A stretch of 64,000 nucleotides of DNA from Geitlerinema sp. PCC 7407. Its GTDB lineage: Bacteria; Cyanobacteriota; Cyanobacteriia; PCC-7407. Location of the stretch: NCBI RefSeq assembly GCF_000317045.1, contig NC_019703.1, positions 2,282,501 to 2,346,500 on the forward strand, read 5' to 3'. Below are positions 27,335-49,461 of this stretch, in pieces. The notes under the pieces were generated by a model. That model did no database searches and had not been told where the DNA came from. It worked only from the letters and a program-made list of their open reading frames with translations. The first letter of the stretch is position 1. Every line of letters starts with the position of its first letter. The position numbers were made by a program, and so were the translations under genes.

Positions 27335-27471
27335 AACCGAGGGTTTGGCCAAGGGGAATGATTCGGGGAATGATTCTTGGAGCGGCCCTAGGGGTCGGTT
27401 CAGGCGGTTGACCCTAGGGGTCTCCTTTGATCCAAATCCACGCGCTTTTTGCTGCCTGCCGTATCTTTTGT

Positions 27472-30400
27472 ATGGACTTTATCTCCCGCTTGTTTCGATC
27501 GGTGTCTTGTCGCTGGGTGATTGCCCTGGGGCTCAGCTCGGCGAGCCTAGGGGCGCTGCTGGCGGTGGCATGGCATCTGCGCTGGTCCAGGGTGCTTCAG
27601 ATTTGGCCGGAGGCGCCCCCAATCCGCTACAACATGGCGATCGCGCTGGTGCTGGGGGGCTTTGCCCTGACGGCCAATGCTTTGGGCTATCGGCGCTGGG
27701 CGCGGGGTCTGGGCGGGGCGATCGCCGTTTTGGGGCTGCTGGTGCTGATAGAGCACCTTTTGCAGATAGACCTGGGGATTGATCAGTATTTTGTCGAGGA
27801 CTATCTGTCGCGGCCGCCCGCGCCGCACTTGGCGTGGCGACCGCTCGAGAGCGTGCCGGGGCGGCTGTCCCCCTACAGCGCCCTAGGGCTGCTGCTGCTG
27901 GGCGTGGCGAATTTTAGCTTGACGGCGGGGCGGCGGCGGGTGAGTGCGGCGATCGCCAGCTTTGCGGCAGTGGGAGCGGTGGCCATCGGCAGCGCGGCTC
28001 TGGTGGGATACCTCAGCGGCGTGATCGACCTGGGCAGCTGGGGCCAGCTCACGGGGGTATCCATTCTGTCCGCTGTGGGGCTGCTTCTGCTGGGCACTGG
28101 AACTTTGCTACTGGCCTTTTCGGCGGGGCGGCCTTATCCCCTGCCCCTGCGCTGGCTGCCCTGGCTCGCGGCCACCGGCGTCCTGCAATTTCACGTGTTT
28201 ATGTGTCAGGCAACGGCGATCTGGGAAACCAGCCAGACCAGCTCTCCTTCCCTGGCGGCGGCCTTTAGGCTGCCGAGTCTGCGCGCTGAGGTGCTCAATG
28301 GGGTGCTGACGACGGTTGGCACGTTTTTGCTGATGCATTTCGCGACCAAGGCGCGCCAGCAGGCGCGGGAGCTGAGCCGTGAGATCTGGGAGCGGCGACA
28401 GATCGAGCAGCGGCTGCTGAGCCAGCGCCAGCGCAGTCGGGCAATTTTCGATCAGACGTTTCAGGTGATCGGGCTGCTGGCGGCGGACGGGACGCTGCGG
28501 GAGGCCAATTCTCAGCTGCTGGGCCTGCTGGGGTGCTCCCCCGAAGCCGTGATCGGGCGATCGCTGTGGGAGGTGGCCCAGTGGGACGGGGAGGTGGAGC
28601 CGCTGCTGCGCCAGGCGATCGCCGAGGCGCTGGCGGGCAGGGTGGTGCGCCACGAGCTGCGGCTGGTAAACGGTCAGGGCAAAATGCTTGATCTCGATTG
28701 GTCCCTCAAGCCGCTGGTCCTGCCGAATGTGGCCGAGACGCTGCTGATTTTGGAGGGGCGCGACATCACTGAGGCCAAGGGCGTTGAGGCAGAGCTGCGC
28801 ACCAGCAAGTATTTCATTGAGCAGGTGACCGACAATTCGCCGGAGCTTTTGTATATTTTTGACCTGCACCAAGGACGCAATATCTATATCAATCGCTATG
28901 TTTCTACGGCCCTGGGCTATACGCCCGAGGAGGTCAAAGACCGGGGCAGCGAGTTTTTTGCCAATATTTTCCATCCGGAGGACATACCAGGCATCCAGGC
29001 GGTTTTTCAGTACGAGCTGACGATGGCGGACGGCGAGGTGTGTGAGCACGAGTACCGCATGCGCCGGGCAGACGGGACTTGGCGCTGGATGCGATCGCGG
29101 GAGGTGGTGTTTGCGCGGGAGCCCACGGGGCGGCCATCCCAGATTTTGGGCATCGCCACAGACGTGACGGAGCGCAAGGCCCTCGAAACGGCGCTGCGAG
29201 CCTCGAAGGCGCAGATTGATGATGTGCTCAACAGCACGATCGCCGGCATTACGCGCTTTCGGCTGTTTGGCGATCGCTCCTTTCAGTACGAGTTTTGCTC
29301 CCAGGGCAACACGGTGGTGTTTGGGTTTTCTGCCGAGGAGATGCTGGAGAGCCCCATGCTGTGGTTTTCTCGCATCTTTCCAGAGGATCGCCCGATCGTG
29401 CGGGAGGCCCTCAACCAGGCTCTAGCGGGACAGTCCCACAGCTTTGCCTACCGATTTCATCACAAAGACGGCTCGCTGCGCTGGATTGCAACGACCTTCA
29501 CCTCACGCTGGGATGGGGAGGCCGAGTGCTGGCTGGTGACGGGCTTTAGCCACGACATCAGCGATCGCAAGCAGGCCGAGGAGCTGGTGGTGCGATCGCG
29601 CGACTTTTATCTGACGCTGCTGGAGACCTTCCCCACGCTGATCTGGAAGGCCGACCTGACCACCGGGGTCATTTATTTCAACCAGTCCTGGCTCCAGTTT
29701 CGGGGGCGCACGCTGGAGCAGGAGCAGGGCGACGGCTGGCTAGACGGCGTTCACCCAGAAGATCGCGATCGCTGCCGGAGAACCTACCTGGAGGCCTTTG
29801 CTGAGCGACGCGCCTTTGAGATGGAGTACCGGATTTTGCGCTGGGACGGCGAATACCGCTGGCTGATGGACTTTGGCAGCCCCTTTAGGGACATCGAGGG
29901 CAACTTCGCAGGCTTCATCGGCTCGTGCTACGACGTGACCGAGCGCCGCCTCGCCGAAGAAAAGCTGCGCCAGAGCGAGCAGCAGTTTCGCGCGCTGATC
30001 GAAGATCTCCAGGTGGGCGTTTTGCTCACGGGGCCGCAGGCCGAAGCGCTGGTGTTTAACTCGGCGGCCCTGCGGCTGCTGGGCCTGAGCGAAGACCAGA
30101 TGATGAGGAAAACGTCTTTTGATCCGCGCTGGCAGGTGATTCACGAAGATGGCGCACCCTTTCCGGCGCCAGAGCATCCGGTGCCGGTGGCGATCGCCAC
30201 CGGCCAGCCCGTGCGCAATGTGGTGATGGGCATTTACCGGGGAGACGACTCTCTGGTGTGGATTTTGGTCAATGCTGAACCCCAGCTAAGCAACAATGGC
30301 AGCGTTCGCCAGGTGCTCTGCACTTTTAGCGATATCACCGAGCGCAAACAGATCGAAGAGATGCTGCGCCACCAGGCTGAGCGGGAAAAACTCCTCGGCA

Positions 30401-31461
30401 CGATCGCCCAGCACATTCGCCAGTCCCTCGATCTCAACCAAATTCTCAGCACGACGGTGCGGGAGGTGCGGCAGCTGCTCCAGGCGGACCGCGTGATTAT
30501 CTACTGGGGGTATCCCAGCAGCGGCGGCCACGTGATCACCGAGTCTCTCAAGACCGGGATTCCGTCGCTGCTGGGGTTTAGCTTTCCGGCGGAGTTTGGC
30601 TGTCTGCTGCCGGTGGATCACTACATCCAGGGCAAGACAAGCAGCCTCACCGATACCCACAGCAGCCCGCAGCTGCCGCCCATTGTTCAGCGAGCGTTTG
30701 CGGCGATGAATATCCGGGCGCGCCTGGCGGTGCCGATCTTGCAGCAGGAGGGGCTGTGGGGCTTGCTGAGCGTGCATCAGTGCCATGAGCCGCGCCAGTG
30801 GCAGTCTTGGGAAATCGGCCTGCTCCAGCAGCTGACGGCTCAGGTGGCGATCGCCATTCAGCAGGCGGAGCTGCACCAGCGGCTCCAGCACGCCAACCAG
30901 GAGCTGCAGCGACTGGCCAGCATTGACGGCCTGACCCAGGTGGCCAACCGCCGCCATTTTGATGAATATCTGCGCCGGGAGTGGCTGCGCCTCGCGCGCG
31001 ATCGTGGTTCGCTGTCGCTGATTTTGTGCGATGTGGACTTTTTCAAGCGCTACAACGATCTATACGGCCACCAAGCAGGAGACGAGGTGCTGCAACTGAT
31101 GGCGGGGGCGATGCGAGGCGCACTGAAGCGCACGGCGGATCTGGTGGCGCGCTATGGCGGGGAGGAGTTTGTCTTGGTGCTGCCCAATACGGATCTGGAG
31201 GGGGCGATCGCCGTGGTGGAGCGGATTCGCCGCAATGTCCAGACCCTCAACATTGCCCATCAACACTCTGAGGTCAGTTCTCGGGTCACCCTCAGCTTGG
31301 GCGTGAGCACGGTAATCCCGACTCTCCAGAGCACGCCTGCCATGCTGATTCAGGCGGCTGATGAGGCGCTCTACGAGGCCAAAGCCCAGGGACGGGACTG
31401 CTACCGAGTGCGATCGCCCACCCCGTTCCCCTCTTCCCCCTCGCCAGCCCATGACGTTTAA
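27472..31461 (+). CDS. membrane diguanylate cyclase with five PAS domains and a GAF
   Basis: This is about 1329 aa from the ATG at 27472. Around eight transmembrane helices fill residues 10-300. Five PAS/PAC units follow (linkers end in motifs such as GRDITEAKG, ATDVTERKA, SHDISDRKQ, CYDVTERRL and FSDITERKQ). A GAF domain lies at about 985-1130 and a C-terminal GGDEF domain at about 1150-1320. The active site is intact (GGEEF), and RTAD precedes it by five residues, the RxxD inhibitory site. It therefore should make c-di-GMP with feedback inhibition. There is no EAL domain. Its stop overlaps the promoter region of the riboswitch at 31471. Confidence 0.9.
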   Translation: MDFISRLFRSVSCRWVIALGLSSASLGALLAVAWHLRWSRVLQIWPEAPPIRYNMAIALVLGGFALTANALGYRRWARGLGGAIAVLGLLVLIEHLLQIDLGIDQYFVEDYLSRPPAPHLAWRPLESVPGRLSPYSALGLLLLGVANFSLTAGRRRVSAAIASFAAVGAVAIGSAALVGYLSGVIDLGSWGQLTGVSILSAVGLLLLGTGTLLLAFSAGRPYPLPLRWLPWLAATGVLQFHVFMCQATAIWETSQTSSPSLAAAFRLPSLRAEVLNGVLTTVGTFLLMHFATKARQQARELSREIWERRQIEQRLLSQRQRSRAIFDQTFQVIGLLAADGTLREANSQLLGLLGCSPEAVIGRSLWEVAQWDGEVEPLLRQAIAEALAGRVVRHELRLVNGQGKMLDLDWSLKPLVLPNVAETLLILEGRDITEAKGVEAELRTSKYFIEQVTDNSPELLYIFDLHQGRNIYINRYVSTALGYTPEEVKDRGSEFFANIFHPEDIPGIQAVFQYELTMADGEVCEHEYRMRRADGTWRWMRSREVVFAREPTGRPSQILGIATDVTERKALETALRASKAQIDDVLNSTIAGITRFRLFGDRSFQYEFCSQGNTVVFGFSAEEMLESPMLWFSRIFPEDRPIVREALNQALAGQSHSFAYRFHHKDGSLRWIATTFTSRWDGEAECWLVTGFSHDISDRKQAEELVVRSRDFYLTLLETFPTLIWKADLTTGVIYFNQSWLQFRGRTLEQEQGDGWLDGVHPEDRDRCRRTYLEAFAERRAFEMEYRILRWDGEYRWLMDFGSPFRDIEGNFAGFIGSCYDVTERRLAEEKLRQSEQQFRALIEDLQVGVLLTGPQAEALVFNSAALRLLGLSEDQMMRKTSFDPRWQVIHEDGAPFPAPEHPVPVAIATGQPVRNVVMGIYRGDDSLVWILVNAEPQLSNNGSVRQVLCTFSDITERKQIEEMLRHQAEREKLLGTIAQHIRQSLDLNQILSTTVREVRQLLQADRVIIYWGYPSSGGHVITESLKTGIPSLLGFSFPAEFGCLLPVDHYIQGKTSSLTDTHSSPQLPPIVQRAFAAMNIRARLAVPILQQEGLWGLLSVHQCHEPRQWQSWEIGLLQQLTAQVAIAIQQAELHQRLQHANQELQRLASIDGLTQVANRRHFDEYLRREWLRLARDRGSLSLILCDVDFFKRYNDLYGHQAGDEVLQLMAGAMRGALKRTADLVARYGGEEFVLVLPNTDLEGAIAVVERIRRNVQTLNIAHQHSEVSSRVTLSLGVSTVIPTLQSTPAMLIQAADEALYEAKAQGRDCYRVRSPTPFPSSPSPAHDV

Positions 31462-31470
31462 TAGAATCTA

Positions 31471-31601
31471 GGCGATGGAGCTCGCCATAACCGCCGTCCG
31501 GCGATCGCGCTAAAATTTGCGCCGACCTTTTTTCTAAACTGGCTTTGGACTGGCTGATGGCTCCTACTTGTTTGGCTTGCTGCCAAAGAGTAGGAGCTTT
31601 T
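31471..31601 (+). ncRNA. fluoride riboswitch (crcB motif) with intrinsic terminator
   Basis: The 5' segment GGCGATGGAGCTCGCCATAA (31471-31490) followed by CCGCC, and the 3' segment GGCTGATGGCTCCTAC (about 31552-31567), match the conserved core of fluoride riboswitches. The P3 region between them is long (about 55 nt) and contains an extra stem with a HIP1-like core. GCTCCTACT (31560-31568) can pair with GGAGC in the aptamer (31477-31481). Alternatively it pairs with AGTAGGAGC (31589-31597), extended by TTTGGC/GCCAAA, to form a terminator ending in TTTT. Fluoride should favour read-through into the antiporter gene, whose ATG is 60 bp downstream. Confidence 0.85.
31560..31601 (+). terminator. 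terminator stem of the fluoride riboswitch
   Basis: Outer stem GCTCCTACT/AGTAGGAGC and inner stem TTTGGC/GCCAAA with loop TTGCT are followed by TTTT. The 5' arm is also the 3' part of the aptamer, so the two folds exclude each other. It may also end transcripts from the diguanylate cyclase gene. Confidence 0.85.
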
Positions 31602-31661
31602 GGCGCTATCCCTTTTCTGGCAGCAAGTCACGCTCACCGTCGTGTCTGAGAGAGGTGCGTG

Positions 31662-33302
31662 ATGCTAGAAAGTTTTCTGTGGATTTTGGGGATGGGGTTC
31701 TTTGGGGGGCAGATTGCTCGCCGCCTGGGAGCCCCGGCCCTCGTGGGAATGGTGCTGATCGGGATCGTGCTGGGGCCGTCGGTGGCCCATGTCCTGAGTC
31801 CTGGCCTGCTGGCGGGGGCAGCCCCCCTGCGCACCGTAGCCGTCATGGTGATCTTGATGAAGGCGGGTCTGGGGCTCGATCGCGACAAGCTGGCCCAGCA
31901 AGGCACCGTGGCCCTGCGCCTGGGCTTTTTGCCGGCCCTGGGCGAAACCCTGGTGGTGGCGATCGCCGCTCACTGGCTGTTTGGGCTGGACTGGCCCACC
32001 GGCCTGCTCCTGGGCTGCGTCCTAGCACCGGAGTCCCCCGCCGTCATTGTCCCCGGCATGCTCCGCCTCAAGAGTCTGGGCTGGGGCGTCACCAAGGGCA
32101 TCCCGGACGCCATCTTGACGGGCAGCGCCCTGTCCGATGTGCTGATGCTGCTGGGCTTTAGCCTGCTGCTGCGCTTCTTGGCCCAGGGCAGCGCGGGAAC
32201 CCTGGCGATCGCCGGTTTCCAGGTCAGCGCCTGGGTCGCCCTGCCCCTGCAAGTCCTCAGCCAGATCGGCTTTGGGGTGGGGGTGGGTCTGCTGGCCGCT
32301 CGCAGCCTCGTCTCGCTGCTCTCTCGCCAAAACTGGACCCAAAACGCCGTGCAGGATATCCTGCTGGCCGCCTGCGCCGCTCTGCTGCTGGTGGTCGGCG
32401 CTGAGCGTTTGCCCTTCTATTCGGGCTATCTGGCCGTCATGGCAATGGGCTTTTTCCTGATCGAGTTTGACGCGCCTCTGGCCCGCCGCCTGCGCACCGG
32501 CTTCGATGGCCTGTGGGTGATTGCCGAGATTCTTTTGTTTGGGCTGCTGGGGGCCAGCATCGAGGTCTCAGTGCTCGAGAGCGTCCTGCTGCCGGGGCTC
32601 TTGCTGCTGGCGGTGGGGACGCTGGTGGGGCGATCGCTCGGGTGGTGGCTCTCCACGGCGGGCAGCAACTGGACCTGGCAAGAGCGGCTGTTTCTGCTGC
32701 CCGGCAACTCCGCCAAGGCCACGGTACAGGCCGCCATCGGCGCGATTCCCCTGGCCCAGGGACTGGCGGGCGGTGAGGTCGTGCTGGCCCTGGCGGCCCT
32801 CTCGATTTTGGTAACCGCTCCCCTGGGGGCGTGGGCGATCCCCACCTTTGCGCCGCGCCTCCTGAGCCGCGGGGCCGTGGACCCGACCAAGGTCTCGGTG
32901 GCTCGGCAGGTGGTGATCGTCGCCGCCGTAGACACTTCGCCCCTGGCTGCGGCGGTCCTGACCAAGGCGGCAGAGCTGGCCCGCCGCAGCAACGGCACGG
33001 TGCTGGTGGTGTCGGTCATCCGGGGGTCCGAAGCGGCGATCGCCCCCCTCCAGGCCCTCACCCGGCAAACGCTAGCCGACATTCGCCACGAGTTTTGTCC
33101 GCTGTCCGGCCCGGTCCCCGAAACCATCATCGAGTTTGCGATCGCCCGGCAGGCAGCAGAGATCGTCCTGGGCAAGCGGGGGCATCAGGCCTGGGATCGG
33201 GTGCTGGTGGGCTCGGTGTCCCAGGCCGTCCTGGAGGCCAGCACGATTCCGGTGCTGCTGGTCGAGGATGAAGCTTCGGGGCGATCGCCCGAAGCGTCGT
33301 GA
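31662..33302 (+). CDS. CPA2-type cation/proton antiporter with C-terminal USP-like domain
   Basis: This is about 546 aa from the ATG at 31662 (AGAGG 6 nt upstream; the preceding GTG is also in frame). About 12 transmembrane helices make an Na+/H+-exchanger domain (residues 1-400). KAGLGLDRDKL and LAPESPAVIVPGM are in the region of the family's ion-binding helices. The last 135 residues (VVIVAAVDTSPLAAAVL ... GSVSQAVLEASTIPVLLVED) form a universal-stress-protein-like cytosolic domain. Fluoride riboswitches are known to control antiporters and USPs as well as crcB, so a role in fluoride or associated acid stress is likely. No crcB is in the window. Confidence 0.88.
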   Translation: MLESFLWILGMGFFGGQIARRLGAPALVGMVLIGIVLGPSVAHVLSPGLLAGAAPLRTVAVMVILMKAGLGLDRDKLAQQGTVALRLGFLPALGETLVVAIAAHWLFGLDWPTGLLLGCVLAPESPAVIVPGMLRLKSLGWGVTKGIPDAILTGSALSDVLMLLGFSLLLRFLAQGSAGTLAIAGFQVSAWVALPLQVLSQIGFGVGVGLLAARSLVSLLSRQNWTQNAVQDILLAACAALLLVVGAERLPFYSGYLAVMAMGFFLIEFDAPLARRLRTGFDGLWVIAEILLFGLLGASIEVSVLESVLLPGLLLLAVGTLVGRSLGWWLSTAGSNWTWQERLFLLPGNSAKATVQAAIGAIPLAQGLAGGEVVLALAALSILVTAPLGAWAIPTFAPRLLSRGAVDPTKVSVARQVVIVAAVDTSPLAAAVLTKAAELARRSNGTVLVVSVIRGSEAAIAPLQALTRQTLADIRHEFCPLSGPVPETIIEFAIARQAAEIVLGKRGHQAWDRVLVGSVSQAVLEASTIPVLLVEDEASGRSPEAS

Positions 33303-33431: not shown

Positions 33432-33704
33432 ATGCGTCGCTCCGGTTCTCCCCTTGCCGCCCGCCTCCAGGCCCTAGCTGGCTGGCTACCCGCGATTATT
33501 TTGCCCAGCGCCACCTTTTTTCAGCTCTGGCCCGTGCTTCAGGGTCAAACTGCCGGAGTGAGCGCTCTTTCTTGGTTTCTCTTTGGAATTGCTAATCTGG
33601 GCGCTTATATCTTCTCCACCCAAAAGCGCACCCCTCAAGTCATCTTGGCGTTTTTGGTCACCGCCGCAATGGATTTTCTGATTGTCCTGCGATGTCTTTT
33701 GTAA
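33432..33704 (+). CDS. small three-helix membrane protein, PQ-loop/SemiSWEET-like
   Basis: This 90-aa protein has three hydrophobic segments (about 15-32, 43-62 and 67-88). The stretch LPSATFFQLWPVLQGQTAG followed by SALSWFLFGIANLGAYI has the layout of a SemiSWEET/PQ-loop unit, with Q in FFQ at the PQ position. SemiSWEETs move sugars or metabolites as dimers; the substrate here is unknown. It is 130 bp after the antiporter on the same strand with no obvious terminator between, so it could be read from the riboswitch mRNA. It ends 12 bp from a convergent kinase gene. Confidence 0.6.
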   Translation: MRRSGSPLAARLQALAGWLPAIILPSATFFQLWPVLQGQTAGVSALSWFLFGIANLGAYIFSTQKRTPQVILAFLVTAAMDFLIVLRCLL

Positions 33705-47883: not shown

Positions 47884-49461
47884 TTGCTCGATCGCAGCGT
47901 CATGGACACTCCCCACGGCTCCGGCGATATCGCCGACCTGATGTCTATTCTGATTATTCTGCTGTTGGTCGCCACAGGCGTGGCCCTGATCACGCGGCGG
48001 CTGCGGATTCCCTACGTGTCCGGACTTGTGCTAGCGGGCCTGTTCATCACCGAGCTCCTGCCCCGTCGGGTCGGTCTCGACTCCTCTCTAATTTTGAATT
48101 TATTTTTGCCCATTTTGATCTTCGAGGCGGCTATCAACACAGACATCAGCCGCCTGCGCAGCACCATCAAGCCTATTGCCTGTTTGGCTGGTCCCGGCAT
48201 TATTCTAGCCGCCGGGATCACCGCCAGCCTGCTCAAAATCAGCCTCGGCTATGCCTGGATTCCCGCGCTCTTTGCCGGCGTGATCTTAGCCATCACAGAT
48301 ACAGTCTCCGTGATCGCAGTGTTCAAAGAGGTGCCCGTTCCCTCGCGCCTATCCACCATCGTCGAGGGAGAGAGTCTATTTAATGATGGCGTGGCTTTGG
48401 TGCTCTTTAACCTGATTGCCACCGTCCATCTCACCGGCACCTTCACACCCATTGGCGGCCTTCAGCAGCTTTTCATGGTGATTGCTGGGGGGGTTCTGCT
48501 GGGGGCGGGCACTGGCTATCTCAGCATTGGCCTCTTTCGCCAGTCCGACGACCCCCTCAGCGATATTCTCCTGAGCGTGGCTGTGGCCCTGGGCACTTTC
48601 CAGGTGGGGCAGCTGGTCGGGGTGTCAGGAGCCGTTGCGGTGGTGGTCGCGGGGCTGGTAATTGGCAATTTGGGCCTCTCGCGCAATGCCTCTGCAACGG
48701 CCAAAGTCACGCTGCTGAGCTTCTGGGAATACGCTGGCTTTGGGGTCAACACCTTTATCTTTTTGCTCATTGGACTCGAGGTGAATCTGATCACGCTGTG
48801 GCAGACGCTGCCCTACGTCCTGATGGCGATCGCCATCTATCAGATCGGTCGCGCCCTTTCGGTCTATCCCCTTCTGGCGATCCTGCGCTTTGTCGATCGC
48901 CCCATTCCCCTGCGCTGGCAGCACGTCCTGTTTCTGGGCAACGTCAAAGGGTCTCTGTCCATGGCCCTCGCCCTCAGCATCCCTAGCAGCGTCCCGGGCC
49001 GCGAAAACATCGTTGCCCTGGTCTTTGGCACAGTCTTGCTCTCGCTGCTAGGACAGGCGCTGAGCTTGCCGTGGCTAGTCAAGCGGCTCAAGCTCAGCAA
49101 ACCCTCCAGCCACCTCCAGCAAGTCGAAACCCTCCAGCTTCAGCTCATCGTGTCCAAAGCAGCCCAGGACGAGCTGGACAACCTGCTCAAATCCGGTGTC
49201 CTGCCCAAGGCCGTCCACGAAGAGCTGCGAGCAACCTACCAGGCCCGCATCGCCTCCTCCGAAAGAACACTGCGGGACCTCTACAACGCGCGTTCAGGCA
49301 TGCCGTCGAGCAGCAAGCTCAATGCCATTCGTCGCCAGATGCTCTTGGCCGAAAAGAGCGCTGTCACCGAGGCCTTGCGCAAGCGGATCTTGTCGGAGGA
49401 GCTGGTTCAGGCCTACGTCAGCGACCTTAACCGTCAACTACTAGAGATTGAGGAGGAGTAG
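47884..49461 (+). CDS. Na+/H+ antiporter, CPA1 (NhaP-like)
   Basis: This is about 525 aa. TTG at 47884 is the likely start because AGGAGG lies 5 nt upstream; ATG at 47902 and an in-frame TTG at 47860 are alternatives. Twelve or so transmembrane helices follow. FLPILIFEAAINTD and ITDTVSVIAVFKE (family: ATDPVAV with a key Asp) with VEGESLFNDGVALVLF are CPA1 signatures. The last 130 residues are a cytosolic coiled coil. Its 3' end overlaps the convergent RCK gene by 35 bp. It would export Na+ or K+ in exchange for protons. Confidence 0.92.
   Translation: MLDRSVMDTPHGSGDIADLMSILIILLLVATGVALITRRLRIPYVSGLVLAGLFITELLPRRVGLDSSLILNLFLPILIFEAAINTDISRLRSTIKPIACLAGPGIILAAGITASLLKISLGYAWIPALFAGVILAITDTVSVIAVFKEVPVPSRLSTIVEGESLFNDGVALVLFNLIATVHLTGTFTPIGGLQQLFMVIAGGVLLGAGTGYLSIGLFRQSDDPLSDILLSVAVALGTFQVGQLVGVSGAVAVVVAGLVIGNLGLSRNASATAKVTLLSFWEYAGFGVNTFIFLLIGLEVNLITLWQTLPYVLMAIAIYQIGRALSVYPLLAILRFVDRPIPLRWQHVLFLGNVKGSLSMALALSIPSSVPGRENIVALVFGTVLLSLLGQALSLPWLVKRLKLSKPSSHLQQVETLQLQLIVSKAAQDELDNLLKSGVLPKAVHEELRATYQARIASSERTLRDLYNARSGMPSSSKLNAIRRQMLLAEKSAVTEALRKRILSEELVQAYVSDLNRQLLEIEEE

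Follow-up and report, generated by a model that had tools for sequence, protein, structure and literature searches.

The 64,000-nucleotide stretch of Geitlerinema sp. PCC 7407 DNA analysed here (the window) carries a leader that, judged by its sequence and predicted structure, is a genuine fluoride riboswitch and that precedes the gene of an antiporter fused to a stress-protein (Usp) domain. The sequences of the leader and its relatives point to a chain of competing helices, A, B and C, that links the aptamer with the start codon, since helix B excludes hairpin A, helices B and C share nucleotides, and helix C reaches the start codon. The reading that I lean towards joins a translational relay of these helices to an antiporter that restores pH and cation balance under fluoride. 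Pairing of this sensor with an antiporter is already known in kind; new are the SLC9B-like clade, marked by an E/S-D/K site, the use of this antiporter on its own, and the proposed three-helix relay. The features concerned are as follows.

31457..31462, + strand: putative -10 element TTTAAT, sharing bases with the stop codon (31459-31461) of the upstream gene
31471..31567, + strand: fluoride aptamer, RF01734 (the Rfam match spans 31462-31573)
31471-31475/31482-31486, + strand: P1 of the RF01734 aptamer, in which P3 is enlarged
31477-31481/31560-31564, + strand: aptamer pseudoknot, GGAGC with GCUCC
31559..31597, + strand: hairpin A, in which the 3' strand of the aptamer, starting at 31559, pairs with a 3' arm whose last base is 31597, from minimum free energy (MFE) folds
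31574..31585, + strand: 5' strand of helix B, made of the loop and 3' arm of hairpin A
31618..31629, + strand: 3' strand of helix B, its end (31627-31629) also used by helix C
31627..31633, + strand: 5' strand of helix C, GTCACGC, with covariation in 19 relatives and a shifted register in the window
31648..31655, + strand: Shine-Dalgarno-like GAGAGAGG, 6 nt before the ATG, from sequence
31657..31663, + strand: 3' strand of helix C, GCGTGAT, which takes in the start codon's first two bases
31662..33302, + strand: antiporter gene, 546 aa, with Na_H_Exchanger (15-389) and Usp (419-534) domains

The initial annotation had proposed a fluoride riboswitch, and a covariance search of the window (Rfam cmscan) bore this out: RF01734 matched at 31462-31573 (+) over its full model (1-64) with 49.4 bits and E 1.1e-10, well placed against a gathering cut-off of 34 bits, and was the sole gathering-level Rfam match in the whole window. 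A search of the complete 4.68-Mb genome returned this one fluoride aptamer and none beyond it. Both core strings that had been quoted are present, as are the two mutually exclusive pairings, GGAGC (31477-31481) with GCUCC (31560-31564), or GCUCCUACU (31560-31568) with AGUAGGAGC (31589-31597), so that the complementary pseudoknot strands share bases with the expression platform. For the 154-nt leader the folding energy is -60.5 kcal/mol (z -4.0), and 0/200 shuffles were equally stable. In sequence, structure and position before a fluoride-related transporter the aptamer is the same as the known crcB motif, from which it differs in an enlarged P3 whose loop contains a HIP1 octamer (GCGATCGC, 31501-31508).

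Transcription probably begins close to the aptamer. A 1344-aa protein gene (27427-31461, +; PAS-, GAF- and GGDEF-like by eye) stops 9 nt before it, so that a riboswitch promoter must overlap the end of this gene, where the putative TTTAAT element lies. A match of at least 4/6 to TATAAT occurred in the 18 nt before the aptamer in 36/44 orthologous leaders compared with 11/44 for a control 60 nt upstream, and the position of the element before the aptamer is near-fixed among relatives.

Hairpin A (GCUCCUACU with AGUAGGAGC) cannot form together with the pseudoknot, and sharing of the 3' strand between pseudoknot and downstream hairpin is likewise found in the RF01734 class. According to a prediction in the paper that first described the crcB motif, a bound ligand keeps an overlapping terminator from forming (PMC2864571), and strand exchange between pseudoknot and terminator has been described for the class (PMC13273304). 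An ordinary transcriptional riboswitch, with hairpin A as an intrinsic terminator prevented by fluoride and helices B and C as secondary, is the main alternative, and it had been assumed in the initial annotation. In the window, hairpin A is indeed of great stability, and its overlap with the pseudoknot is just that seen in fluoride riboswitches already characterised. CUUUUGG, with its run CUUUU, comes directly after it, and a T-rich tail (5-6/8 T) follows the hairpin in 12/64 leaders. The hairpin was almost invariant among 28 relatives, with 95.8% of cells paired and little covariation. Against a terminator, a terminator scan found 0 terminator-like sites, the U-tract is weak (3 T in the next 8 nt in the window), no U-tract is common to the relatives, and the two further helices towards the start codon are conserved and covarying. 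Thus, the hairpin and the strand overlap were real, but what was found is a G+C-rich hairpin with a poor and unconserved tract, and termination as the output was weakened as a candidate. The annotation was probably wrong about this step, and I regard the purely transcriptional reading as rather unlikely; some termination at hairpin A is nevertheless possible, since the hairpin is strong in the window and CUUUUGG comes next.

Two more conserved helices and the absence of a conserved U-tract set this leader apart from the RF01734 class. In aligned leaders, helix B joins the loop and 3' arm of hairpin A to a strand ~30 nt downstream, and the overlap of strands makes it exclusive with hairpin A; 90.3% of its positions were paired, with covariation far above every slid control. 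Helix C joins the end of the B 3' strand to bases that immediately precede or cover the start codon, and was 99.1% paired in the 19 relatives whose register adjoins the AUG. Both-sided changes numbered 27 against 9.4 in shuffles for B (0/500) and 8 against 1.8 for C (0/500), counts that support the helices but are not probabilities, as the shuffles ignore relatedness. B and C shared at least 3 nt in 62/64 leaders. Leaders of the Nostoc type showed the same scheme built from different sequences, with a B 3' strand complementary to AGGAGUU. In the window itself, helix C failed to beat shuffles (z +1.6), and B and C share only ~3 nt, so partial coexistence is possible.

Helix B was usually more stable than hairpin A, and accordingly the plain MFE fold of the post-aptamer segment omits hairpin A, which gave rise to the idea of a relay. 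The unpaired probability of the start region in the window was 0.004 with hairpin A formed and 0.38 with the pseudoknot strands blocked. Across 64 leaders, blocking these strands did not shift equilibrium start accessibility significantly, either compared with the free leader (p 0.16) or with a control block (p 0.07). A relay, if it works, would therefore probably be kinetic, given this result and the greater stability of B. The covariation of B and C makes a translational relay fit better than attenuation.

The proposed sequence of events rests on this covariation, the shared nucleotides, the accessibility values in the window and the lack of a conserved U-tract. Transcription would start at the aptamer or slightly ahead of it. 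In the absence of fluoride, hairpin A would capture the aptamer 3' strand (CUCCUAC) and lock the 5' strand of helix B, leaving the B 3' strand free, so that helix C could close over the ribosome-binding and start region and keep the gene off. With Mg2+-fluoride bound, the pseudoknot would hold the 3' strand and block hairpin A; B would then form, C would be weakened, and the antiporter would be translated. Its most likely job would be to restore cytoplasmic pH and cation balance once HF has entered and dissociated, either by itself, the situation in this genome, or together with an exporter of the CLC-F or CrcB type. This would make the leader a conserved natural fluoride switch that may act on translation via several exclusive helices, in contrast to the well-studied transcriptional ones.

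The controlled protein had been called a CPA2-type antiporter fused to a stress-protein domain, and both domains were confirmed (PF00999, Na_H_Exchanger, E 6e-28; PF00582, Usp, E 7e-18, residues 419-534). Its nearest sequence relatives in the PDB are human and bison NHA2 (SLC9B2; 7b4l, E 2.6e-31), and NHA2 was also the top Foldseek match of the predicted model (pLDDT 75, pTM 0.65), which places it with the CPA2/SLC9B type by domain, sequence and fold. Much of the ion-site region (125-151) of the model has a pLDDT < 50, and nothing is therefore claimed from side-chain geometry. The site residues are E124, S158-D159 and K352; among 81 orthologs E124, S158 and K352 were kept in 81/81 and D159 in 77/81. 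Compared with NHA2 (PDB 7b4l, 7p1i), the protein retains the KATVQAAIG stretch and the second of the two D-D aspartates, while the first D-D position is Ser, the invariant Glu124 stands where NHA2 has Ala or Val before SPAV, and a C-terminal Usp domain is added. With S-D in place of D-D the protein is called SLC9B-like rather than an SLC9B transporter; by sequence it is best described as an SLC9B/NHA2-like antiporter that would exchange cations and protons. The genome encodes 11 further Na_H_Exchanger proteins; they were at most 23% identical to this one, and none had the same site.

The pairing of riboswitch and antiporter is conserved. Among 80 orthologs taken from genome contigs, the aptamer preceded the antiporter in 49 (43/80 by a strict pattern plus 6 by Rfam), and the remaining 31/80 had no Rfam aptamer match before the gene. 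Conversely, 25/30 oriented aptamer loci across the phylum preceded the antiporter or its remnant, three of these being truncated remnants (L019, L022, L028), and the other 5 preceded CLC-F (2), CrcB (2) or another transporter-like gene (1). Presence of the riboswitch was clustered on the antiporter tree, with 13 changes compared with 25 expected by shuffling. The four antiporters of methanotroph Gammaproteobacteria (L106, L107, L114, L117) sat inside the cyanobacterial tree and three of them carried the riboswitch, which suggests horizontal transfer.

That the aptamer arose by chance or is a relic without regulation is hardly credible: the Rfam match is full-length, and position and leader are conserved across many families. 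The two observations in its favour are the 31/80 orthologs without an aptamer, which imply that the gene works without it, and a decayed hairpin A in one methanotroph copy (L107). Antiporter clades without the riboswitch include Okeania (L064, L066, L087, L088, L096, L118, L119), Moorena (L098, L103, L104, L121) and the Leptolyngbya PCC 7375 group. Okeania and Moorena, together with L065 and L068, which also lack it, form a mostly marine set. Seawater fluoride is steadily high, and this might favour constant expression of the antiporter in these marine clades.

The remark that there was no crcB close by proved right and even understated, as a genome search found CrcB nowhere in this genome. 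No CLC-F match was found in the genome at 1e-50 either; CLC-F proteins have GNN and GREGT-type selectivity motifs, and the two CLC proteins present are not of the F type, one having GSGIP/GREGP and the other being divergent. In a survey of 386 genomes, the riboswitch was found in 49, CrcB in 251, this antiporter in 59 and CLC-F in 19. The riboswitch lay directly before the antiporter in 24 surveyed genomes, of which 12 had neither CrcB nor CLC-F, 6 had CrcB and 6 had CLC-F. Where such a genome had an exporter, it was in most cases the next gene: CLC-F in G066, G097, G127, G276 and G305, and CrcB in G024, G175, G284 and G338. In the contig set, 45 riboswitch loci with >1 kb downstream had CrcB there in 11 and CLC-F in 2.

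These numbers raise the question of how cyanobacteria that lack CrcB and CLC-F withstand fluoride, and whether a cation/proton antiporter could be the main fluoride defence or even a fluoride mover. The antiporter may indeed be the main defence of bacteria that have the pair but no known exporter. A bolder proposal is that the antiporter-Usp protein exports fluoride itself and so adds a third type of exporter to Fluc/CrcB/FEX and CLC-F. In this genome it is the sole riboswitch target and both known exporters are absent, as they are from half of the pair-bearing genomes; CrcB was rarer where the antiporter was present (19/59 vs 232/327, p 3e-8, in a test that ignores shared ancestry); at three loci (L019, L022, L028) all that lies between riboswitch and CLC-F is a broken antiporter copy; and the S-D pair with its invariant Glu is unusual. 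Yet, the protein folds like cation/H+ antiporters and keeps the site Asp and Lys. CLC-F (EriC-F) and CrcB/Fluc, which have unrelated folds, are controlled by the same riboswitch class and are direct operon neighbours of the antiporter in several relatives. The antiporter often accompanies a true exporter, and the accepted role of such antiporters is pH balance: the review PMC11139923 links riboswitch-associated Na+/H+ antiporters to pH homeostasis under HF entry. I therefore consider export by this protein unlikely. The stronger joint claim, that in many cyanobacteria the SLC9B-like antiporter-Usp replaces CrcB/CLC-F as a third fluoride exporter unrelated to them and is governed by a translational relay riboswitch, is more doubtful still; if it were true, it would also bring a relay of exclusive helices so far undescribed for the fluoride class.

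The same review (PMC11139923, citing Baker 2012) ranks Na+/H+ antiporters as the most common riboswitch-associated class after fluoride exporters. Compared with the antiporters reported there, the pairing of sensor and antiporter family is the same, while here an SLC9B/NHA2-like clade is fused to Usp and in many cases is the sole target of the riboswitch, in a genome that lacks both CrcB and CLC-F. A literature search that covered few subscription papers returned no work that deals with the cyanobacterial antiporter described here or with a fluoride riboswitch of relay type.

The gene behind the antiporter had been suggested as a PQ-loop gene of the same unit, a proposal that did not hold. This ORF (33432-33704, +; 90 aa) is membrane-like and SemiSWEET-like by eye, and has a TATAGT element upstream. 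Against Pfam it matched neither PQ-loop nor MtN3 at E up to 10, a PDB search likewise gave no match, and the PQ-loop/SemiSWEET identity was dropped; the ORF was not conserved beside the antiporter in the 80 orthologs. A second CPA-type antiporter, NhaP-like and with an N-D site, is encoded ~16 kb downstream in the window (47965-49083, +).
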